Below are positions 4,483 through 15,245 of a stretch of 42,482 nucleotides of DNA, one piece after another. Made by a program: the position numbers and the translations under genes. Origin of the DNA: Candidatus Vecturithrix granuli (GTDB taxonomy: Bacteria; Moduliflexota; Moduliflexia; Moduliflexales; Moduliflexaceae); NCBI GenBank assembly GCA_000739535.1, contig DF820464.1:418447-460928 (forward strand), written 5' to 3'. Numbering within the stretch: the stretch's first letter is position 1; each line of letters opens with the position of its first letter. The notes beneath the pieces are model-generated. The model saw only the letters and a program-made list of their open reading frames with translations, ran no database searches and was not told where the DNA came from.

Positions 4483-4542
4483 ATGTAGCGTGAAACTCCA
4501 GTTTCGCGGGTGCGGGCGCGAAACTGGAGTTTCACGCTACAT
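4483..4542. repeat. Nested palindromic element, copy 2
   Basis: There are perfect 26-base inverted arms at 4483-4508 and 4517-4542 with an 8-base loop (GGTGCGGG). Each arm holds the inner palindrome GAAACT-CC-AGTTTC. It lies just upstream of the PqqD-like gene and ends 14 bases before its start codon. A half copy of another repeat (AAAACCGAGTTTTT, compare 26378) lies immediately before it at about 4458-4475. A transcript through this point would fold strongly close to the downstream ribosome binding site. Confidence 0.9.
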
Positions 4543-4556
4543 GGACAGAGGTGAAA

Positions 4557-4853
4557 ATGAATCTTCAATCAATTCCCAGGCGGTCTGAGCATGTGGCCTG
4601 GAGCCAGATTGATCAAGAGGCAATTCTGTTGAATCTGAACAACGGGTTTTACTATACGCTCAATGAAGTCGGCTGCGACGCCTGGAAACTCATTGACGCG
4701 CAGCGCCCAATTTGTGCCATCAGCGACGAAATACGCTCGCTGTATGCGGTCGAACAAGACCAGATTGTGCATGATCTGTGCATCTTATTTCAAGAATTGC
4801 AGCAGGAAGATCTCATTATCATTCTTGATTCTCAACCAGAACGCCATGAATAA
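4557..4853 (+). CDS. PqqD-like RiPP precursor recognition protein
   Basis: This 98-residue protein is a full-length stand-alone PqqD-family domain (RRE, RiPP recognition element). In this fold the peptide leader is bound by the winged-helix beta strand and helix 3. Typical family blocks are visible: VAWSQIDQEAILLNLNNG, then FYYTLNEVGCDAWKLID, then an acidic helical end with LFQELQQEDLI. In lasso and other RiPP pathways such a protein delivers the precursor, by its YxxPxL leader motif, to a peptidase or maturase. The chosen ATG has AGAGGTG 5 bases upstream; an in-frame GTG two codons earlier is less likely. It is followed 18 bases later by the transglutaminase-fold peptidase, the classical B1-B2 pair. 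Confidence 0.88.
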   Translation: MNLQSIPRRSEHVAWSQIDQEAILLNLNNGFYYTLNEVGCDAWKLIDAQRPICAISDEIRSLYAVEQDQIVHDLCILFQELQQEDLIIILDSQPERHE

Positions 4854-4871
4854 CACTGGATAAGGGAATGT

Positions 4872-5372
4872 ATGAAAGATCTTGCATCCTATTTGAAGAT
4901 CTTCAACAAATTTCGTCACTTTGAATCGTTCCGCGATGTTTGTCTTTTTTTTCAGATCCCGCTGCTCTGGATAGCTTTACCCTGCTTGCTGCTTCTACGG
5001 CTTCAAACGGTGTTACGACTACTCACACCGCGCCGCCAGAGTCTTGTCCGGGAAGCCGTCGCCAGAGACAGGTATCAAAAAATTCTGCACTTTGCCCACT
5101 ATTGGTTGCGGTGGAAATGGATCGCCGTTTATAACACCTGCCTGAAGAAATCCTTATTGTTGTATTATTTTTTAAACCGTGAAGGCATTCCGGCCCAAAT
5201 TTGCTTTGGAATTAAGAAAAACGAGGGCAATTTAAACGGACATAGCTGGATCGAGACCCCCTCTTTTATCCCCTCCCCTCCTGACTACAACAACGATTTT
5301 ATCAAAATCTACACCTATCCGGAAATGCCTGTCGAAATATTTTCCACTTCAAAAAATTCGCTATCGTCCTGA
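4872..5372 (+). CDS. Transglutaminase-like leader peptidase (lasso peptide B2-type)
   Basis: This 166-residue Transglut_core3-family protein is of the kind that cleaves the leader from lasso and related RiPP precursors. The catalytic Cys90 lies in VYNTCLKKSLLLYYFLNREG and the catalytic His124 in NGHSWIE, with about 30 residues between them as in the family. The third, acidic residue is not obvious after the His, because the expected D-G-x-P turn is replaced by a Pro/Ser-rich stretch, so activity is likely but not certain. N-terminal hydrophobic stretches (about residues 25-50) fit membrane association. Together with the PqqD-like gene it forms the recognition/protease half of a RiPP system whose precursor candidate lies about 5 kb downstream. 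Confidence 0.82.
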   Translation: MKDLASYLKIFNKFRHFESFRDVCLFFQIPLLWIALPCLLLLRLQTVLRLLTPRRQSLVREAVARDRYQKILHFAHYWLRWKWIAVYNTCLKKSLLLYYFLNREGIPAQICFGIKKNEGNLNGHSWIETPSFIPSPPDYNNDFIKIYTYPEMPVEIFSTSKNSLSS

Positions 5373-5825
5373 AAACAAAAGGATCATAGAAAAAATTTTT
5401 TGAAGAAGAAAAGAGTGTCGATTTTTTTAATAATTTTGTAAACATACTATAACGTTTTATTTGTTAATATGTTAGCAGATTATTTACAAAAATAAATTAA
5501 TATTCATGTCGATTTTTTTTACAATATGTATTCTCATCAGATGCTAACCTTCCAGGAATGAGGAGGAAATTATAGGTGGCATAAATTTTGCACAATATTT
5601 TTATAAAACGATACATCTTATGAAATACTGCCTGTGCTATTTTTCAATTGCCAGCATCTCGGAACCAAAAGTTTGAGGTTTACTCACTGCTATTCTCGAA
5701 TTGTCAGGATTGTTCTTTATTGAGATTGGATTTATTCATATTTTATTCTTGCTAAAACAGAAAGTTCGTACAAATATCATAGAAAAGTAAATTTTGATAA
5801 AAACTTTTAGAATGGGGGAAAGACG
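5373..5825. other. AT-rich intergenic region with a sigma-54 promoter
   Basis: This is about 450 bases without a credible gene, very AT-rich with several runs of T and A. It separates the peptidase gene from the 1177-residue exoprotein gene. The only firm element is the sigma-54 type promoter at 5577-5592. The distance from that promoter to the ATG implies an untranslated leader of about 220 bases. A good ribosome binding site (GGGGGAAAG) precedes the ATG at 5826. I see no clear terminator after the peptidase gene. Confidence 0.6.
5577..5592 (+). promoter_or_regulatory. Sigma-54 (RpoN) -24/-12 promoter
   Basis: The sequence TGGCATAAATTTTGCA matches the sigma-54 consensus TGGCA-N6-TTGCW at every conserved position, with the required GG-N10-GC spacing. 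It lies in the AT-rich intergenic region and points toward the large exoprotein gene at 5826. Transcription should start near 5603. Sigma-54 promoters need an AAA+ activator bound upstream; no such activator gene is in the window. Confidence 0.75.
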
Positions 5826-8800
5826 ATGAAAAAAGTAAGTGTTCTCATCATAATGATAGCATTGTTCATGCTGCCCGCATGGAATACCTACGCCGCGACG
5901 ATTATCGTCAATACAACTGATGACGAATTGAATAGTGATGGTGATTGTTCTCTGCGCGAGGCTGTTCAATCAATAAACACAGCAACGAATGTGGATGGCT
6001 GTAGTGCGACAGGTTCGTATGGAACTGATGATACAATTACTCTTCAAACCGAAACATATACTCTCACGATAGCCGGGGCGAATGAGGACAACAACGCTAC
6101 CGGCGATTTGGATATTAGATCTTCGCTAACGATTAATGGAGTAGATGCCAGTAAGACAATCATCCAGGGGGGAACTGCAGGACCTCCTACGCCAAACGGG
6201 ATTGACCGGGTGTTCCATATTCCTGTGGCAGGGATTATGGTGAATATCTCCAATGTAACTATTCGAAATGGAAACGCACCTGGCATCACAACGGGCCGGG
6301 GCGGCGGCATTTTTGTGGCTGTTAACGCTACGCTCAGTCTTAATAATAGTGTAGTCTCGAACAATACCGCGAATGTCAATAATGGGGGTGACAACGGCGG
6401 CGGCGGCGGTCTTGAAAATAATGGCGGGGCAGTAACTATAAATAACTGCACTTTCAGCAATAATGTTGCTGTCAGGAATGGAGGCGGCATTTATACCAGA
6501 AATGGAACATTGATGGTCACCAATAGCACTATTAGCGGAAATAGTGGTGCATCCTATGCCGGTGGTATTTATCAACGTCAGGGAGGGATAGTGACTTTAA
6601 CCAATACTACCATTAGCGGCAATATCTCTACTGCTGCGGGCGCTGGTGATGGCGGCGGAATTTTTGCTTATAGTGATACAACAGGCCCTACTATAACATT
6701 GAATAATTGCACGGTAAGTAATAACACAGCTAATCAGGGTGGCGGGATCTCTCGTTGGAGGGCAGGGTTAACGCCTGCAGGAGTAAATATAACCCCATCT
6801 CTAACGAATACGATCCTTGCTGATAATATTGCTCCTACCAATCCAGATTGTTATACAAATAACCTCACTTCCGGCGGTTATAATCTGATTGAAACTGCCG
6901 CGGGTTGTGGTACGATTAATGGCGATACCACTACTAATATACTTGGGAGTGATCCGAATCTTGCGGCTTTGACTGACAACGGCGGTCCCACCCCCACCCA
7001 TGCCCTGCTCACCACTCCGACTATTAGTCCAGCTATTGATAAAATACCTTTTGGCACAAGCGGTTGTGGTATGACGTATACAACAGATCAACGCGGAACA
7101 GGCTACTCTCGCCCCTCACCTGCCGGAGGTGCTTGCGACATCGGCGCGTATGAATATCAGTCCGTAACTACTTATATCCTGACGGTGACGACCAGTGGGA
7201 ATGGGACGGTGACGAGCACGCCGGCCGGGATTGACTGCGGGGCAGATTGCAGCGAGAGTTATGTCAGCGGGACGGCAGTCAGTTTGAGCGCCACCGCGGA
7301 CACGGGCTGGACGTTCAGCGCGTGGAGCGGGGATTGCGACGCCAGCGGGAACGTAACGATGGATGCGGCCAAGACTTGCACCGCGACCTTTGTGTTGGCA
7401 AGTTTTAGTGTTTTGATTGATGTTACGCCGGGGACGACGGTAGCTACCTGGGATTTGTTGACGTTTACTCCGGTTGCATCAGGGGGAACATTAGCGGCGG
7501 TAACGTGGAAGTTTGGGGATTGTTATGCTCCGCCGTGTGGGGCGAGTGCTGTGCAATCAGAGAGTACAATTACGTCGGCTCCGTTTACAGAGACATTCCG
7601 ATATCCAAAAGCGGGAACCTATGTGGTAACCTTAGAGGCAACTGATACCCTCAATAACACAGCGACAGCCAGCGTCACGATTACAGTGACAGGTTCGACC
7701 CCCAGCCTTACGCTGGCAACACAGAATCTGGGTAACAACCTGACAGCAGGTTCACCGATCTCAGGTGACCTTAACGGCGATGGCGTGAAAGAAGTGGTAG
7801 TTCCTTCAGACCACTCGATTCGAGTGGTCGGAGGAGTAAATATGGCACTTGGACCGGCGACTGGAATCTGTGGCTCTTCACCTCTATTAGCGAAAGACGA
7901 TGCTATCGGAGCTATTAATGGTATTTTTGCCCTGGATACGACTGGTAGATTGTACGGTTGGACTGCGGGCGGCGCGTCATTGACGGGTTATCCATTGACA
8001 GTTACGGAGATTAAGAATGTCTCGCCAATGGCGAGTCCGGCAATAGGCGATATTGATGGAGATGGCGATTTAGACATTGCCTGGGGAGGAGACGGCGACA
8101 CTAACGGTGAAGCATACGTCACTGCCCATGATATTGTAACAGGCGACCCACTGGGCGGTTTTCCGGTGCTTCTCTCGAACAATGTCGGTACCGGACCAAC
8201 ATATCCGCGCACCACTTCAGTGGCTTTAGCAAATGTGATCGGCGGCACAGGAAGGGAAATTTTTATCGGATATAACAATGTAAGCACTAATACCGGAAAC
8301 GTCATGCGAGTAGCTGCCGGAGGAGCAACGTTAAACTTTTCGATGAATGCTAATGAACAGATCGGTTCGGGCGGAATTCCCTCAACGCAATATGCGAATT
8401 CAGGACCAACAGTCGGTGATGTTGATAACGATAGAACAATGGAACTTGTACTTGGCGGTGATCAGGGCCATGTCTATATTTGGAATGCAAGTACCGGGGC
8501 TTTGGAGGCGGTCGTTGACGCTGGTACAGCTCCGATTACTTCTGATCCTACATTGGCGTATCTGACCAGTGATACCGGATTAGATATTGTCGTCGCCAAT
8601 GCGGAAGGAACGGTCTTTTGTATCCGGTGGAACGGTACTATCTCGCAGATCCTCTGGCAGACAGATCTCGGCACGCTTGGGCTGCTTTCGCCGGTGATCG
8701 CGGACGTTGACGGAGATAATGCACTTGAAGTCGTCATCTCCAAAATGAGAAGCGGCAGAGTGTTTGTGCTTGAGAGGGATGGCTCGATTAATACAGGGAT

Positions 8801-9359
8801 CAGTGCAGCAACCGGAACTGCCGGACAGATTAACGCTTCGGCCGCAGTTTCCGATTTAGATAGAGATGCTGATTATGAGATTCTGGTGACTGATGATGTG
8901 GCGTCGCCTGCTCAGGATAAGCTCTATATCTGGGATATTCCCAAAACCCTGCCAACCGCAAATCTCAGAACCATTGTCGGTTGGCCCTTCTTGCGCGGCA
9001 ATTATTACCGGGATGGTTCGATTACGACCGCGAATCTCTATCCGGTGAAAGTCACGTATGATACAATCGCCTGGCCGCTGATGAAGTTTTGGGTTCATGT
9101 TGAAAATAGAGGTACAGGAATTGCAAATAATGTCGCGTTGAAATATGTCAGTTACCAACCGTTCATGTCGCTGGTATCTCCGGCAAATGGCATTATCATG
9201 ATTACGCCGAATCCCCCGGCTTCTATTGCAGCCGGAGCGACAGGCGTCACGGAACCGCTCACCTTCAATATGAGCGCGTATGCCGGGCAGGAGATTATTA
9301 TGTATTTCGATATTACATATACGGATGCCGATGGAACCGAACATTTGATTCACCGGTAG
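5826..9359 (+). CDS. Large secreted beta-helix / PKD / FG-GAP beta-propeller protein
   Basis: This 1177-residue exported protein has a Sec signal peptide (about 1-23, cleavage after TYA). Domains in order: a CSLREA motif (C41-A46), which marks the start of many surface beta-helix proteins; a right-handed parallel beta-helix with Asn/Gly-rich rungs such as NNCTFSNN and TNSTISGN (about 55-445); a Cys-containing bacterial repeat with GNGTVTSTPAGIDCG (about 450-525); a PKD-like domain (about 525-622); a beta-propeller of FG-GAP/VCBS-type repeats with calcium-binding-like GDLNGDG, GDIDGDGDLD and ADVDGDN motifs (about 627-1045); and a C-terminal beta-sandwich (about 1075-1177). Function is probably adhesion or glycan contact at the cell surface. 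Six or more DxDxDG-like loops imply calcium binding. A sigma-54 promoter lies upstream and a cohesin-like exoprotein gene follows. Confidence 0.85.
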   Translation: MKKVSVLIIMIALFMLPAWNTYAATIIVNTTDDELNSDGDCSLREAVQSINTATNVDGCSATGSYGTDDTITLQTETYTLTIAGANEDNNATGDLDIRSSLTINGVDASKTIIQGGTAGPPTPNGIDRVFHIPVAGIMVNISNVTIRNGNAPGITTGRGGGIFVAVNATLSLNNSVVSNNTANVNNGGDNGGGGGLENNGGAVTINNCTFSNNVAVRNGGGIYTRNGTLMVTNSTISGNSGASYAGGIYQRQGGIVTLTNTTISGNISTAAGAGDGGGIFAYSDTTGPTITLNNCTVSNNTANQGGGISRWRAGLTPAGVNITPSLTNTILADNIAPTNPDCYTNNLTSGGYNLIETAAGCGTINGDTTTNILGSDPNLAALTDNGGPTPTHALLTTPTISPAIDKIPFGTSGCGMTYTTDQRGTGYSRPSPAGGACDIGAYEYQSVTTYILTVTTSGNGTVTSTPAGIDCGADCSESYVSGTAVSLSATADTGWTFSAWSGDCDASGNVTMDAAKTCTATFVLASFSVLIDVTPGTTVATWDLLTFTPVASGGTLAAVTWKFGDCYAPPCGASAVQSESTITSAPFTETFRYPKAGTYVVTLEATDTLNNTATASVTITVTGSTPSLTLATQNLGNNLTAGSPISGDLNGDGVKEVVVPSDHSIRVVGGVNMALGPATGICGSSPLLAKDDAIGAINGIFALDTTGRLYGWTAGGASLTGYPLTVTEIKNVSPMASPAIGDIDGDGDLDIAWGGDGDTNGEAYVTAHDIVTGDPLGGFPVLLSNNVGTGPTYPRTTSVALANVIGGTGREIFIGYNNVSTNTGNVMRVAAGGATLNFSMNANEQIGSGGIPSTQYANSGPTVGDVDNDRTMELVLGGDQGHVYIWNASTGALEAVVDAGTAPITSDPTLAYLTSDTGLDIVVANAEGTVFCIRWNGTISQILWQTDLGTLGLLSPVIADVDGDNALEVVISKMRSGRVFVLERDGSINTGISAATGTAGQINASAAVSDLDRDADYEILVTDDVASPAQDKLYIWDIPKTLPTANLRTIVGWPFLRGNYYRDGSITTANLYPVKVTYDTIAWPLMKFWVHVENRGTGIANNVALKYVSYQPFMSLVSPANGIIMITPNPPASIAAGATGVTEPLTFNMSAYAGQEIIMYFDITYTDADGTEHLIHR

Positions 9360-9456
9360 CCTGATAGACTCTCGGAGTCTCGAAAACTCCAGGAGCCTTG
9401 ACGTGTCATTACTTTCTTTGAAAAGTTAGAACATGTACAAAAGAGGGAAAAGAATT

Positions 9457-10002
9457 ATGAAAATCAAATGTTTTTTTGTTCAAAGTCTGGGTGTCATCTT
9501 CCTTTTGAGACTTTTGGTAGCCTCTCCCGGGTTGGCAAGCCAGCCGTTAATTCAAACCGCGCTTGCCGATCCTACTATCACTGCCGGAGATGAGTTCCTT
9601 CTCTCTGTGTTATTGGATCTTGACGATGCTCTGTCGTCCGGAGGATATATTGATCTGGTTTACGATCCTAATGTTTTGGAGTGCGTCAAGGTTCAGAATT
9701 TTAATATATTTGGCGGGATGAAATCTGATTCATGCGCGGTGGATAGCGGAATTCTTCGGATGACTTCGAGAACAGCAAGTTTGTTTCATGTGAGGACCTT
9801 TCTGTTGCTGGAGACCTATGCCATTGTGACATTCCGGGCAAAACAGGTAGCAGCCTCTACTGCGATTGAGTTTGCGGATACTTCTCAGATATTTGGCGTC
9901 GGGGGAGGAAATATTTTGGTGGAGCGCGATGATAGCGCAACCCTTCATATTACAACGGTAGAGCCTTCTGAACCGGCATCCTTTTTGCTATGGAGCCGTT
10001 AA
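9457..10002 (+). CDS. Exported cohesin-domain-like protein
   Basis: This 181-residue protein has a Sec signal peptide (about residues 1-28, ending near GLAS) and one cohesin-like beta-sandwich (about 40-170). It shows TAGDEFLLSVLLDLDDALSSGG, then IDLVYDPNVLECVKV, then AIVTFRAKQVA, the usual order of strands in cohesin-type carbohydrate-module scaffolds. Two cysteines (in VLECVKV and SDSCAVD) could pair. The tail VEPSEPASFLLWSR looks like the beginning of a PEP-CTERM sorting signal but stops before the membrane span and Arg cluster are complete. The ATG at 9457 is preferred over one at 9433 because a GAGGG lies about 10 bases before it. It probably acts outside the cell with the preceding exoprotein. 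Confidence 0.72.
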   Translation: MKIKCFFVQSLGVIFLLRLLVASPGLASQPLIQTALADPTITAGDEFLLSVLLDLDDALSSGGYIDLVYDPNVLECVKVQNFNIFGGMKSDSCAVDSGILRMTSRTASLFHVRTFLLLETYAIVTFRAKQVAASTAIEFADTSQIFGVGGGNILVERDDSATLHITTVEPSEPASFLLWSR

Positions 10003-10118
10003 AAAATAACCGTTGTACATTTTTTGGGATTGCCAAAATTCAACGTCAAAATGGCCTGGGTTTTGACAATTCAAGCCGAACAATGGGACACATGTAACAG
10101 AAGGATGGTTTTTCGCGA

Positions 10119-10478
10119 ATGAAAAAAAATGTTGGAACAATCGTTTTTTTTATTATCCTGATGCTATTTGTAGTATTATACCTTTCTCTTTCAGGTAAAC
10201 AGACGGACAAAACGCTGTCTCAAAAGACAGAAGTTTCGCAGACTGACGTATCTATTCAGGAATCTGAGACTGAAAAATCTCAACCAGTTTCGGACGAAAA
10301 AGTCATACTTCCATCTTCCCAACACCCTTCTTCTGAGACATTACGCCAGGAAGCCGAACAACGTTTTGAAAAGTTGATGAGAATCGAAGAAACGTCGGGT
10401 ACACCTGTTGAACGCGGAGATGGACTTCGGGTCCAAATAGAGATACCTATTCCATCTGAACCAGCGCAGACAGAATAG
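10119..10478 (+). CDS. Small membrane-anchored protein, function unknown
   Basis: This 119-residue protein has an N-terminal membrane anchor (about residues 6-25, IVFFIILMLFVVLYLSL). A hydrophilic, probably disordered Ser/Gln/Glu/Pro-rich outside region follows. I recognise no family. The only structured-looking part is a short predicted helix near 75-92 (SETLRQEAEQRFEKLMRIEE). The ribosome binding site is weak. It lies between the cohesin-like gene and the RiPP precursor, whose own promoter begins about 60 bases after this gene ends, so it more likely belongs with the exoproteins. Confidence 0.5.
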   Translation: MKKNVGTIVFFIILMLFVVLYLSLSGKQTDKTLSQKTEVSQTDVSIQESETEKSQPVSDEKVILPSSQHPSSETLRQEAEQRFEKLMRIEETSGTPVERGDGLRVQIEIPIPSEPAQTE

Positions 10479-10536
10479 AGAAATAGACTTCTTATGCCGA
10501 CAAATGAGCTTTGGGCGATTCCTTTGTTGTTTTTTG

Positions 10537-10566
10537 TTGACAAAAGAAAATTGTTTGCGTTATCAT
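10537..10566 (+). promoter_or_regulatory. Sigma-70-type promoter for the RiPP precursor
   Basis: TTGACA (10537-10542) is separated by 18 bases from TATCAT (10561-10566). The -35 is perfect and the -10 matches five of six consensus positions. Transcription would start near 10573, about 55 bases upstream of the precursor ATG. The spacing and position make this the likely promoter for the precursor, kinase, radical SAM, methyltransferase and nucleotidyltransferase genes. Confidence 0.65.
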
Positions 10567-10626
10567 TTTTTTAGAGTGAGGAAGCAGAAGCATGTGCAGC
10601 AATAGATAAGGGGAGAGGAGGTCACT

Positions 10627-10845
10627 ATGAAAGATTCCATAGATTCTGCCAACAGGAAATGTGAACACCCTGAAATTGTTCAGGATTCTGCGTCAGCAAA
10701 CAACAAGGAAATATCTGAGAAAAAAACCTATACTTCTCCAACCTTGAAACGGTACACTTCTCCGAAATTACGGAAGCATAGATCCTACAAAGATATTACC
10801 ATGTTATTCGCCGTGATCCCTCCGATTCCTCCAACTTCACCGTAA
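10627..10845 (+). CDS. Candidate RiPP precursor peptide with duplicated YxxPxL leader motif
   Basis: This 72-residue peptide has a very strong ribosome binding site (GAGGAGGT). The leader ends with two tandem recognition motifs, YTSPTL and YTSPKL (residues 38-43 and 46-51), then SYKDIT, which matches the lasso-type leader pattern YxxPxL...T except that the usual Gly is absent. After that Thr the presumed core is about 13-14 residues, beginning MLFAV and ending IPPIPPTSP. It contains five prolines and no Asp, Glu or Cys. A lasso macrolactam needs an Asp or Glu at core position 7-9, so a standard lasso fold is not possible. Ser is the second-last residue, a plausible target for the HprK-like kinase next door. 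Assignment rests on leader motif, size, strong start and the maturase genes immediately downstream. Confidence 0.75.
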   Translation: MKDSIDSANRKCEHPEIVQDSASANNKEISEKKTYTSPTLKRYTSPKLRKHRSYKDITMLFAVIPPIPPTSP

Positions 10846-10862
10846 GGTTATCGTATCCTGTT

Positions 10863-11906
10863 GTGAAATTACCCTCAGTTTCTTCTGCCTGTTTTGGATC
10901 CTTTTTGCAGCAGATTCCTGCATCCTCTCAAATTGTCCGCTATTATCATGTTCATGATCTCTGTCTGAAAATCGTCTCAAACCGAAGCGACCTGCTTCAA
11001 TTATTTGATGAGCTTTTGGGGTGTTTTCAGTCGCCAGATTTTTCCGGAGAGCCTTCGCTGGCCTTAAATTTATACGCTATTCCCTCTGAGTGCGCGCCTT
11101 CTTTCCAGATTCCGAAGAATTGGAGTTTATATGATCGCACTTCTCATATCTCGTGCTATCTCTGCGACCATGCCTTATTCTACCAATACAAGAGACAGGG
11201 GATGTTTTTTGCAGATATTGAGCAGGGCTATGGGCTTGGGTATATCACGATTCCTTATTCAGATCAAGATAGCCTGAACATATACCAGAATATCTGGCTT
11301 CTTGCCTTGTTTCATATCATGCGGGCGCGGAATGTGTTTCCGCTTCATGCTTCTGCCGCGCTGTTCAAGGAAAAAGGGGTGCTTATTGCTGGGGCTTCGG
11401 GACAGGGAAAGACAACGCTTCTGCTTCATCTGCTGCGAGCAGGATTTCAATATATGGCCGATGATACGGTTTTGCTGCGGCAGGATGCAGATAGTCTGAA
11501 GATGTTGTCGTTTCCAGCTACTATCAGAATAACTGCTGAGACGACAAGCCTTTTCCCGGAGCTCTCTTCTTTCATCAGAGAAACACAGCCGGATAGACGG
11601 GGAAAGTATCATATTGAACCGCAGAAACTTTCTTTGCTTCCTCCACCGCATTCTGCAATTCCTGCGTTCGTTTTGCTTCCGGAGATTACTGCCGGAGAGG
11701 AGACAGCGATTGTGCCAATCTCCAGGATGGCAGGGGCGATACAATGTATTCCGCAAAATACGCCTGTCAATAAGCTTGGAATAAGTCGAAATAATTTCGA
11801 TCTGTTGTGCCGGCTTTTTCATCATGCTCAATGTTATCAACTCCGGCTCGGACAAAATATGAATTCTATCGGGAGGCAGATTGCTGATGTGATGTGTGAC
11901 GTGTAG
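10863..11906 (+). CDS. HprK-like serine kinase associated with RiPP cluster
   Basis: This 347-residue protein has a C-terminal HPr kinase/phosphorylase-like P-loop domain. It shows FPLHASAAL (His162 region), the P-loop GASGQGKTT (177-185) and an acidic pair in MADDTVLL (Asp200, Asp201). The N-terminal 150 residues are the variable region common in the RiPP-associated HprK group. In characterised lasso clusters, kinases of this fold phosphorylate the C-terminal Ser of the precursor, so Ser71 of the adjacent peptide is a reasonable target here; that is inference. The start is GTG 17 bases after the precursor stop with no clear ribosome binding site, consistent with coupled translation at a lower level than the peptide. 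Confidence 0.82.
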   Translation: MKLPSVSSACFGSFLQQIPASSQIVRYYHVHDLCLKIVSNRSDLLQLFDELLGCFQSPDFSGEPSLALNLYAIPSECAPSFQIPKNWSLYDRTSHISCYLCDHALFYQYKRQGMFFADIEQGYGLGYITIPYSDQDSLNIYQNIWLLALFHIMRARNVFPLHASAALFKEKGVLIAGASGQGKTTLLLHLLRAGFQYMADDTVLLRQDADSLKMLSFPATIRITAETTSLFPELSSFIRETQPDRRGKYHIEPQKLSLLPPPHSAIPAFVLLPEITAGEETAIVPISRMAGAIQCIPQNTPVNKLGISRNNFDLLCRLFHHAQCYQLRLGQNMNSIGRQIADVMCDV

Positions 11907-11951
11907 CAAGGAAAACGAACGATTACGCATGACGCATGACGTGTTGCATGT

Positions 11952-12974
11952 ATGGACCCATTGATAGCTTTTCATCTTGCTGTTGAGTTGACAAATCGCT
12001 GTAATTTTTCCTGCATCCATTGTTTCAGGGAAAATAACATCACCGAAAATCCTGATATCCCGGTAGAAGTCTATGAAAAATTTTTGAAGGAGTCGTTATC
12101 CTATAAATCGCCGTACATTACTCTTACCGGAGGCGGCGAACCAACGCTTCATCAGGATTTTGAAGCGATCCTCGCTCTTACGGCTCGTTATCATTATGCC
12201 TATACGCTGATCACAAATGGCTGGACATTTGAAACGGTCTATCCGTTATTAGATCGATTTAGAACCAATTTACACACGGTTGTTCTGAGTTTAGATGGGG
12301 CAACAGAAGAAACTCATGACGCCATTCGTCAACAGCCCGGATCATATCGGAAAGTCATTCAAGCGTGCATGATCTGTTATTATAAGCAGATCCCATTTCA
12401 ACTGACCATGACAGTTCATCGGCTGAATTTTTCGGAAATTGATGAATTTCTGGTTCTTGCCTCGAAATTGGGCGCAACCGAAGTGAACCTGGGACCTGCC
12501 CAATTGACCAAAAAACTTGTGTCAAAAGGGTTGGCATTGTCACCTCAGGAACGGAAACAACTCCACGCGAAGAACCTTTCTCTGGAAGAAAATCCGCTTC
12601 TTCCGGTCAATATCGGGTTTGATTATTTTATTGAAAATCCATGCGTGCCTTGTTATACGCTCCGCATGTCTTCTCTGCTGCTGGATTATGACGGGCATGT
12701 ACGCTTTTGCTGTCAACTTTCAGGATATGAAGATCATGCTGAAACTGGCGGGCTGGATATGATCGAAGATTTGAGACAGTCCTCAGTCTGGGAATGCCAT
12801 CGAGCACTGGTGAGAAAAATAACGACATTTCAAGAGGAAAAAATCAGGCGGATTGAACAACAGACCTTCACGGAAAATGAGCATTTTCCCTGTTATTATT
12901 GCGCAAAGTATTTTCATAAGTTGGACTGGTTGAAAGATTTTCCAGACTCGGAATGGAGTGGCGATGATGATTGA
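11952..12974 (+). CDS. Radical SAM enzyme with SPASM/Twitch-like C-terminal cysteines
   Basis: This is a 340-residue radical SAM protein. The [4Fe-4S] cluster motif CxxxCxxC is Cys17, Cys21, Cys24 (RCNFSCIHC). A glycine-rich SAM-binding GGGEP lies at 60-64 and LSLDGATEETHD at 113-124. The C-terminal part has further cysteines at 231, 234, 253, 254, 314 and 317, the arrangement of an auxiliary-cluster SPASM or Twitch domain; Cys253/254 lie in VRFCCQLSG after DYDGH. Enzymes of this type modify RiPP precursors (thioether, C-C crosslink, epimerisation) or act in cofactor synthesis. The precursor has no Cys, so thioether formation on its own residues is unlikely. The start has no good ribosome binding site. 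The gene overlaps the methyltransferase gene at its 3' end. Confidence 0.85.
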   Translation: MDPLIAFHLAVELTNRCNFSCIHCFRENNITENPDIPVEVYEKFLKESLSYKSPYITLTGGGEPTLHQDFEAILALTARYHYAYTLITNGWTFETVYPLLDRFRTNLHTVVLSLDGATEETHDAIRQQPGSYRKVIQACMICYYKQIPFQLTMTVHRLNFSEIDEFLVLASKLGATEVNLGPAQLTKKLVSKGLALSPQERKQLHAKNLSLEENPLLPVNIGFDYFIENPCVPCYTLRMSSLLLDYDGHVRFCCQLSGYEDHAETGGLDMIEDLRQSSVWECHRALVRKITTFQEEKIRRIEQQTFTENEHFPCYYCAKYFHKLDWLKDFPDSEWSGDDD

Positions 12975-13986
12975 CCGGAAACGAGTGGCTGAAGTATATA
13001 ACCGCCCTGATATGGTAGCGTATTATGAAACGCTGGCAAATCGTTCAGGTTTGTGGAGAGAAGAACAATGCTTGATCAATCGGTATTTTTCGGCTCCCGC
13101 CAGAGTCTTAATTATTGGCTGTGGAACGGGAAGAGAGGCATTTCCCCTGGAACAGCAGGGCTTTACGACGATAGGGATTGATATTGCCCTCCGGACGCTC
13201 ATTCTGGCAAATGAGAAACTGCGGAAAATGCCTGAAGTAAAGCTGAGTTTTCAGCAGGGAGATGCTGTAGCTTTGCCCTATCGTGATGAAAGTTTCGAAA
13301 ATGTCCTGATGGTGACACAGGTTATTCAACATATTCCGAAGCGGCGGTATCGAAGGCAAGCACTTTGCGAAATCAATCGGATCTTAAAACCAGGCGGATA
13401 CGGCATTCTGTCAGCATTCAACGCCCCAATCAGTTTATTATATTTGTTGTGTATGGGGAGGCAATATCAACGCCTCTTACGTGAACAGGAGAGGGGTGAA
13501 GGGATTTGTGAGAAGAAGGTACAAATAGATGCGGACTTGTTTAAACATAGTGGAAAATTTGGATTACGGCAATTGATGTTACGAATCATGAACAGGATCG
13601 CCTGGGAAATCCACCCTGTCATCTGGAAGTACTCCGATCCTTTGCCTGTCACCTGGCATGCGGGATTTGCTGTGTTTTGTATGTTCACAAATATTCAGCG
13701 AATCTTGCGAAAGAAACTGAGTCGGTCTCCTGAAGCTATTTTTGAGCCAAACGATTTTATGCTGGACCACCGAGGATTCCACTTTCGCGTTTTCTCACAG
13801 GTAGGCGATTTGTTTGTCCACTTTCCTGATGTTGATGAAATCGCTGAGGATATTGCCGCTGCTCATCTTAACCTGATTGAATATCGCAGCCTGGAAGAAC
13901 TTCAGCAGGAACAGGTCCTTTCAGAGAAGGAACGCCGGTCAAAACGATTATTATTCTATGTCGTCCGGAAAAAGTGCGTAACATGA
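12964..13986 (+). CDS. SAM-dependent methyltransferase (class I)
   Basis: This 340-residue protein has an N-terminal class I methyltransferase domain. Motif I is RVLIIGCGTGREAFPLEQQG (about residues 47-66), an acidic residue follows strand 2 in IGIDIA, then come QQGDAVALPY and a motif near FENVLMVTQVIQHI. The C-terminal half after about residue 150 matches no domain I know and may confer specificity. It overlaps the radical SAM gene by 11 bases (ATG at 12964 or 12967, GTG at 12958), so the two are translationally coupled. Probable role: methylation of the peptide or of an intermediate in the cluster. The substrate is unknown. Confidence 0.8.
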   Translation: MMIDRKRVAEVYNRPDMVAYYETLANRSGLWREEQCLINRYFSAPARVLIIGCGTGREAFPLEQQGFTTIGIDIALRTLILANEKLRKMPEVKLSFQQGDAVALPYRDESFENVLMVTQVIQHIPKRRYRRQALCEINRILKPGGYGILSAFNAPISLLYLLCMGRQYQRLLREQERGEGICEKKVQIDADLFKHSGKFGLRQLMLRIMNRIAWEIHPVIWKYSDPLPVTWHAGFAVFCMFTNIQRILRKKLSRSPEAIFEPNDFMLDHRGFHFRVFSQVGDLFVHFPDVDEIAEDIAAAHLNLIEYRSLEELQQEQVLSEKERRSKRLLFYVVRKKCVT

Positions 13987-14009
13987 GTGTATAATGTTGT
14001 CATCCGCGG

Positions 14010-15245
14010 ATGTATCCAATGACATACTCCAAAGAACAGGAATTTTTGCTGCTTGCGGTACAGAGATCGCTTTGCGAAGATGAGCGGCAAAGACGGGAGA
14101 GGTTATGCGCTGAAGCTCTTGATTGGCAGTATATCCAACGACAAGCCGCCTTCCATCGAATAGGCCCGTTAATTTATCATCACTGTTTTTCTCAGGCCAA
14201 TCAGGGTGATCATATCCCTTCTGAGGTACGACAGTATTTTCAGGATGCATATCAACAAACCTATCTCCAAAATAGATTGCTTTATCAGCAATTGAATCTC
14301 CTTTTGCCAGAATTCGAAAAACATAATTGTCGCCCGATTGTCTTAAAAGGGATTTTCCTGGCAAAATACATATATCAGAATATCGCGCTGCGTCCGATGC
14401 ACGATATTGACCTTCTGCTTCAGCAGCAAGACGCCAACACCGCAGTGCAGATTTTGAAAAACGCCGGGTATTCAAATATACTCAACCATATAGTCTTTCT
14501 GTCCGATTGGCACCAGTTTCAAGAAGACCGTATTTTCAGGGAATTGGAATCTCAGGGCTTTCATCTTCCGATATTCATAAAAAAATTGGGAGCGTTCAAT
14601 GTGTGTGTGGAACTTCACCATCATATCACGCCGATATTAGACGCTCAACAGATTGATTCTATGCCTGTTTCAGGTTTTAATGGCCCTGTTCGTACCTTGA
14701 GTCCGGAATATTTTTTGCTGCACCTGTGTTTTCATGTATATAATCATTTCCAGAAAGAGTCTTCTTCGTATTTGCTCTGGTATTATGATATTGTTGAATT
14801 CATTCATACATATTATTTCCAGGATTCCTCGATGAGTTGGAAGAGGTTTCTTGTTCTTTGTCAGCAGATCCAGATCGAAGAGGAAGTATTCCGGAGTCTT
14901 GCGATAGTTCATACGCTATTTAAGGTTGCTGTGCCAGAGAAAGTTTTGACGTTCCCCTGGGATTTTCAAGAATTACTCATACACATCTTTTCTGAACCCA
15001 AACCTAACCCTGAGGTGAGTATGTTGCGATCTGTATTGGCGCAAAGAAAAAGTTTTGGATTACGCTATCTTTGGGACTGCTTGTTTCCATCGAAAGCATT
15101 TCTCGTTGCTCGCTATAATATCCGTCCTCGTTGGCTGGTTTACCTGTATTATCCTGTTCGATTGTTTAAAGCGTTGAGCCGTGGGGGAAGGCTTATCAAA
15201 GTCCTGTTCACAAATGATGACAAAAACGTTAAAAAGAGAATGTAA
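14010..15245 (+). CDS. NTP_transf_5-type nucleotidyltransferase-fold protein
   Basis: This 411-residue member of the uncharacterised nucleotidyltransferase family (NTP_transf_5) is common in lasso peptide and exopolysaccharide clusters. Its signature is visible: PIVLKGIFLAKYIY (109-122) followed by LRPMHDIDLLL, where Asp132 and Asp134 form the metal-binding DxD of the nucleotidyltransferase fold. A histidine-rich ELHHHI follows near residue 200. In one studied lasso pathway a protein of this family acts on the phosphorylated C-terminus made by the HprK-like kinase. The same pairing occurs here, which supports a kinase-then-transferase step. It is the last gene of the cluster and lies 24 bases after the methyltransferase gene. 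Confidence 0.8.
   Translation: MYPMTYSKEQEFLLLAVQRSLCEDERQRRERLCAEALDWQYIQRQAAFHRIGPLIYHHCFSQANQGDHIPSEVRQYFQDAYQQTYLQNRLLYQQLNLLLPEFEKHNCRPIVLKGIFLAKYIYQNIALRPMHDIDLLLQQQDANTAVQILKNAGYSNILNHIVFLSDWHQFQEDRIFRELESQGFHLPIFIKKLGAFNVCVELHHHITPILDAQQIDSMPVSGFNGPVRTLSPEYFLLHLCFHVYNHFQKESSSYLLWYYDIVEFIHTYYFQDSSMSWKRFLVLCQQIQIEEEVFRSLAIVHTLFKVAVPEKVLTFPWDFQELLIHIFSEPKPNPEVSMLRSVLAQRKSFGLRYLWDCLFPSKAFLVARYNIRPRWLVYLYYPVRLFKALSRGGRLIKVLFTNDDKNVKKRM

Follow-up and report, generated by a model that had tools for sequence, protein, structure and literature searches.

We describe a locus in the genome of Candidatus Vecturithrix granuli UASB270 that probably encodes a class of ribosomally synthesized and post-translationally modified peptide (RiPP) in which lasso-type leader recognition and cleavage are combined with phosphorylation of the core peptide and with modification by a radical S-adenosylmethionine (SAM) enzyme in place of macrolactam closure. 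The locus lies in a stretch of 42,482 nucleotides (contig DF820464.1, positions 418,447 to 460,928 of the forward strand; hereafter ‘the window’). Its host is a bacterium from wastewater granules, assigned to the phylum Moduliflexota/KSB3 (PMC4312070). The system is more than a lasso cluster minus its cyclase. Its kinase and leader peptidase fall with those of radical SAM modules in phylogenetic trees, the same cyclase-free gene set recurs in distant lineages, and its precursors share the lasso leader register on cores that a lasso cyclase could not close.

Genes of the pathway

All pathway genes in the window are on the + strand, with B1 and B2 followed, 5 kb on, by the run from precursor to NTP_transf_5. 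An earlier note on this DNA had named each of them (PqqD, peptidase, precursor, kinase, radical SAM, methyltransferase, and NTP_transf_5), and each is encoded where that note had placed it:

4557..4853, +, PqqD-type RiPP recognition element (RRE) protein, B1, presumed to bind the leader; ATG at 4557 in frame 4551-4853; PF05402, E=4.6e-12
4872..5372, +, B2 leader peptidase of transglutaminase fold; PF13471 (Transglut_core3), E=1.7e-14
10627..10845, +, precursor peptide, 72 aa; strong Shine-Dalgarno sequence GGAGG; leader register
10863..11906, +, HprK-like peptide kinase; PF07475 (E=4e-6) and TIGR04352 (53 bits), both below cut-off
11952..12974, +, radical SAM enzyme; PF04055, E=7e-17
12958..13986, +, SAM-dependent methyltransferase, accessory; PF08241, E=5e-19
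14010..15245, +, NTP_transf_5 protein, accessory of BsfN/PsmN type; PF14907, E=2.2e-47

The best NCBIfam model for B1 is lasso_PqqD_Bac, with a score (50.7 bits) below the cut-off of 80. B2 passes NCBIfam lasso_biosyn_B2 (NF033537; 50.5 bits, cut-off 33), retains its Cys (in TCLKKSL) and His (in GHSW), and is the single PF13471 match in the whole host genome. The kinase retains the H...GxxGxGKT...DD motif.

Precursors and leader register

The leader of the window precursor ends in ...YTSPKLRKHRSYKDITM and is followed by the predicted core LFAVIPPIPPTSP. All 13 precursors found align in a single leader register, Y/F(-17) P(-14) L/I/V(-12) T/V(-2); the window precursor matches the lasso leader (Y-17, P-14, L-12, T-2) exactly, and the others in part have F for Y and I or V for L. 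The register is common to BsfA, in which Tyr(-17), Pro(-14), Leu(-12), and residue -2 were mutated and tested for phosphorylation and cleavage; residue -2 is Ile in BsfA, Thr being the usual residue there (PMC10368454). Throughout the 42 kb, the window precursor is the sole short open reading frame (ORF) that fits [YF]xxPx[LIV]x9[TV], for which the chance expectation is ∼0.003 for the 500 bp ahead of the kinase and ∼1 for the whole window.

The cores are unlike those of lasso peptides. None of the 13 precursors has Asp or Glu at core positions 7-9, and 12 of the cores, that of the window included, have neither residue anywhere; the four control lasso precursors (L103, L105, L106, and L114) all have D8 or D9. 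A core without Asp/Glu cannot, therefore, form the lasso macrolactam ring. Cys is absent from all 13 cores, so a thioether cannot form either, and the Cys donors that mark sactipeptides and ranthipeptides are lacking.

Absence of a cyclase

The absence of an asparagine-synthetase-like cyclase from the locus, on which the earlier note had built its reading, holds: eight Asn_synthase matches were found in the host genome (21 contigs, 8,384,694 bases) and none in the window. The same search returned a single odd candidate for a cyclase encoded elsewhere, a 612-aa Asn_synthase-like protein that stands alone and lacks the usual N-terminal Cys (Cys2) (G000:C21:14876-16714; L038). As a lasso cyclase this protein was rejected: it scores 44.8 bits on the lasso cyclase model, against a cut-off of 525, and does better on amidotransferases. 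A PDB sequence search with it gave no match at 1e-5, and B1, B2, and the kinase are absent within the 20 kb read around it. Beside it lie a short fragment resembling radical SAM proteins and a gene for a GNAT-like acetyltransferase.

The existence of that protein might nonetheless suggest a lasso cluster whose cyclase acts in trans, as might the fact that kinase-bearing lasso clusters have B1, B2, kinase, and nucleotidyltransferase as their accessory set (PMC10368454). We consider this very improbable: the core offers no Asp/Glu acceptor, the candidate lies far under the lasso cyclase cut-off, no cyclase adjoins the module of any relative, and lasso-type clusters of the same order (L105 and L106) keep theirs next to B2. 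Even less probable, and already largely at odds with the conservation of the gene set, is a decayed lasso cluster that lost its cyclase and survives as a remnant. Such decay would account for the missing cyclase and for a locus split into two parts 5 kb apart, but every frame is open with catalytic motifs retained, the identical cyclase-free set recurs across many distant lineages, and the precursor core does not resemble a degenerate lasso core.

Recurrence of the module

An initial search with the window radical SAM protein gave clear homologues in unrelated genomes. By profile search, the enzyme belongs to a discrete family that is present in 13 of 385 sampled genomes, every match at E<=1e-104, and nothing was found beyond these 13 down to the limit of 1e-40. 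All four genomes examined of one phylum, that of G045, which appears to be Schekmanbacteria, encode it; named loci with the family belong to Schekmanbacteria GWA2_38_11, Deltaproteobacteria RBG_13_61_14, and Sericytochromatia. PqqD, HprK, radical SAM, and B2 genes are contiguous in L035, L040 (a Schekmanbacteria contig), L066, and L067. The order in L037 is PqqD, lipoprotein, precursor, kinase, radical SAM, PD40 protein, and B2, and the remaining module loci hold subsets of PqqD, HprK, radical SAM, and B2. In 8 of 12 genomes, about 5 kb or less separates B2 from the radical SAM gene. Radical SAM relatives usually stand with HprK, PqqD, and B2, and no Asn_synthase match was found in any of their modules. 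Among 20 other B2 loci taken as a control, half (10) have Asn_synthase alongside; the other ten are mixed, some being cut by contig ends. In the order of the window host, L105 and L106 (genomes G002 and G003) are apparent true lasso clusters, with cyclase, kinase, NTP_transf_5, and Asp8 cores.

The earlier note had compared kinase, nucleotidyltransferase, and B1/B2 to a lasso accessory set, with radical SAM enzyme and methyltransferase alongside. Kinase, B1/B2, and radical SAM enzyme do recur; the methyltransferase is not conserved (none was found beside other B1/B2 modules), and NTP_transf_5 is confined to some of the relatives. B1, B2, kinase, radical SAM enzyme, and precursor make up the conserved unit.

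In the HprK and B2 trees, radical SAM modules are split from cyclase-linked lasso loci with support of 99/99 and 96/93, respectively, and the window proteins are both on the radical SAM side, a statement that concerns the side and not the placement within it; many of the lasso kinase rows were short. The nearest relatives of the window B2 are the B2s of L035, L040, L067, and L066.

These results bear on whether the radical SAM–kinase pair and the B1/B2 pair could be unrelated systems brought within 5 kb of each other by chance. The precursor has a promoter-like site of its own, and in G023, G308, and L041-L043 radical SAM and kinase genes occur without adjoining B1/B2 (G023 and G308 encode PqqD and B2-like genes elsewhere, the B2 of G308 being partial). 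In most genomes, however, B1 and/or B2 adjoin the pair; PqqD and precursor are likewise separated by a gene for a large secreted protein in G043 and G320; and the leader register suits B1/B2. We therefore find a chance arrangement improbable. The related proposal that B1/B2 serve another peptide, which the earlier note had allowed for, finds no support either: in 8 other genomes, 0-5 kb separate B2 from the radical SAM orthologue; B2 is unique in the host genome; and the window B2 groups, as does its HprK, among the radical SAM modules. With neither such a peptide nor a cyclase elsewhere found, that note's suggestion of a different maturation chemistry is strengthened.

The radical SAM enzyme

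Besides the CxxxCxxC motif, Cys234, Gly248, Cys253, Cys254, Cys314, and Cys317 show no variation among 17 sequences, giving the pattern C234-x13-G248-x4-C253, C254, C314-xx-C317. C-x13-G-x4-C fits the first half of a SPASM/twitch motif, and the invariant cysteines may bind an auxiliary cluster. Were four of these five to do so, the fifth could, as a guess, be a hydrogen donor of the kind found in epimerases. In Foldseek, the AlphaFold2 model (predicted local distance difference test [pLDDT] score of 90) matches BlsE, SkfB, SuiB, CteB, and PqqE, with template modelling (TM) scores of about 0.5-0.6; the predicted fold resembles RiPP maturases among others and, at such scores, leaves the reaction unfixed. 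Radical SAM RiPPs in general have a precursor, an RRE, and a radical SAM enzyme that acts on the precursor; the window has the genes and the Cys pattern, and action on the precursor is predicted.

Proposed pathway

We propose four steps. First, B1/PqqD would bind the YxxPxL leader of the 72-aa precursor, as the register mutated in BsfA suggests. Second, the HprK-like kinase would phosphorylate a Ser or Thr of the core, probably Thr11 or Ser12, by analogy with BsfK, PadeK, and PsmN; by the same analogy, the NTP_transf_5 protein may decorate the phosphate. Third, the radical SAM enzyme, and not a cyclase, would install the defining modification on a core free of Cys and of Asp/Glu, most likely epimerization or the formation of a C-C or C-O bond at an unactivated carbon; in Candidatus Vecturithrix granuli, the methyltransferase may add a methyl group. 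Fourth, guided by Thr(-2), B2 would cut on the C-terminal side of Met(-1) and so remove the leader.

Several observations weigh against this pathway. YxxP leaders are not confined to lasso peptides (PMC12710340). The window HprK has a long branch, and good support is therefore limited to the side of the tree on which it falls. None of the known residue patterns predicts the reaction of the radical SAM enzyme. No ABC (ATP-binding cassette) or other exporter is encoded in the module. To these are added the radical SAM–kinase pairs without adjoining B1/B2 described above, and three genomes, G188 and G322 (both fragmented) and G385 (70% complete), in which the profile search found no precursor.

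Comparison with known systems

Kinase-bearing lasso clusters (bsf of Bradymonas, paeninodin, and pseudomycoidin) have the same leader register (Y-17, P-14, L-12, T/I-2) and likewise encode discrete B1 and B2, an HprK-like kinase (H-GK-DD), and in some cases NTP_transf_5. The window differs in having neither cyclase, ABC exporter, nor core Asp/Glu acceptor, in having a radical SAM enzyme instead, and in the separate tree side of its kinase and B2. The SynChlorMet cassette (NCBIfam Scm) likewise includes an HprK-related protein, a PqqD-like chaperone, and radical SAM/SPASM proteins; unlike the window, it has two radical SAM enzymes, and we know of no B2 in it. Membership of the window system was rejected on scores far under the cut-offs (ScmC 21/125, ScmD 25/100, and ScmF 63/400 bits). 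Radical SAM RiPPs with YxxP-type RREs (pyrroloquinoline quinone [PQQ], StsC sactipeptides, and mycofactocin) also combine a PqqD-like RRE with a radical SAM enzyme, and the window enzyme shares with theirs a likely auxiliary cluster and a fold near SkfB, SuiB, and PqqE, but the window has a Cys-free core, a lasso-type B2, and an HprK kinase.

Of almost 8000 discrete lasso-type RREs reported by RRE-Finder, only ∼4000 co-occur with both peptidase and cyclase; RRE–radical SAM loci of this kind were counted there only as false positives of the lasso model, of which loci with radical SAM neighbours account for about 300 (PMC7470986). The literature searched, which covered few subscription journals, held no description of an RRE, B2, kinase, and radical SAM set with lipoprotein-linked precursors. 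A RiPP pathway that joins a lasso-type front end to radical SAM chemistry would apparently yield a modified peptide of an undescribed kind. Such a pathway points to the leader-recognition and cleavage unit of lasso peptides as a portable module, one that also supplies a radical SAM enzyme. Since the enzyme family, the precursors, and the predicted cleavage register are now named, whether Cys-free peptides carry a new radical modification can be tested directly.

Distant precursors and lipoproteins

A first precursor profile, built from five precursors, found further ones in G320, G190, G045 (four), G308, and G023. Independent matches outside the training set had E=1e-8 to 0.14 (E-values of training members are good by construction), and the weak ones are supported by their shared register and neighbours. 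A second profile, to which the newly found sequences were added, gave no new precursors in the genomes searched; outside its own family, it matched only lasso precursor leaders of G002 and G003, in the order of the window host. No precursors were found locally beside the modules of L035, L040, L066, and L067; those of the module-bearing G045 and G190 were located away from the module by the profile search.

In several genomes, precursors unlinked to the module lie immediately upstream of large lipoproteins. In G045, they are just 5' of three paralogous lipoproteins (∼1050 residues, 45-85% identical), with a precursor core of FTSVSNVSGTTFF; G190 has a lipoprotein at the equivalent place, 39% identical to those of G045; and in G023, a different 907-aa lipoprotein directly follows the precursor. 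No Pfam match was obtained for any lipoprotein scanned, and an AlphaFold2 model of a lipoprotein (pLDDT 32) was set aside. One stretch of G045 (L098 2-7205) encodes in a row a precursor, a lipoprotein, and PD40/BACON, cytochrome-c-like, and TonB-receptor-like proteins.

The lipoprotein linkage hints at a physiological role, and the mature peptide may conceivably be a cell-envelope companion of these proteins. More broadly, and tentatively, the central set (B1, B2, kinase, and radical SAM) could define a multi-phylum RiPP class that serves scattered precursor-lipoprotein pairs and yields phosphorylated, radical-modified envelope peptides, not secreted antibiotics. A different reading of the linkage is that the system acts on a surface lipoprotein, by modifying or supporting it, or produces a protein cofactor, with no free peptide as product. 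The position of precursors directly 5' of lipoproteins of 0.9-1.07 kaa (thousand amino acids) in G045, G190, and G023 would suit this, as would the recurrence of PD40 or FG-GAP propeller proteins nearby. We think it unlikely, though the strongest of the alternatives, given that the lipoproteins of most lineages have no detected homology to one another, that the system includes a short precursor whose cleavage site is of lasso type, and that no lipoprotein follows the precursor in the window.

Other features of the locus

The earlier note was right about the 5-kb distance between B2 and the precursor; the interval is not empty and holds three ORFs, followed by a promoter-like site:

5826..9359, +, 1177-aa secreted protein with CSLREA, choice-of-anchor Q, PKD, and FG-GAP; between B1/B2 and precursor
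9433..10002, +, 189-aa exported protein, cohesin-like; weak match to PF00963 (E=0.003), below cut-off
10119..10478, +, 119-aa protein, membrane-anchored at its N terminus; no Pfam match
10537..10566, +, promoter-like site just ahead of the precursor, TTGACA-18-TATCAT; a consensus match only (11/12)

The 189-aa and 119-aa proteins are possible, unproven companions of the pathway.

Other arrangements of related genes were seen. L116 (3980-10549; G228) is cyclase-free, in the order B1, B2, another radical SAM gene, two precursors, kinase, and NTP_transf_5; the precursors have the leader YTKPTLTKHKPLRDITA and cores GDISGARG and ANPSIT, and the best NCBIfam matches of the radical SAM protein are mycofactocin maturase and TIGR04133. 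L118 (4617-7825) and L115 (4727-7833) combine PqqD, an HprK-like kinase, B2, and NTP_transf_5, and lack both cyclase and radical SAM enzyme; a precursor-like ORF in L118 has the core VSDPKLHLERHELYVGDEL. In L072 (7139-13549; G312), two Cys-Gly-rich precursor-like peptides (YSKEELEE...GCGCGCG) neighbour two radical SAM genes, two PqqD genes, an HprK-like kinase, and NTP_transf_5.

Immediately before PqqD in the window is a perfect 25-bp inverted repeat (4484-4541). Its reversed control gave zero matches genome-wide, and the repeat itself belongs to a genome-wide palindromic family with 165 forward and 178 reverse matches (<=2 mismatches).

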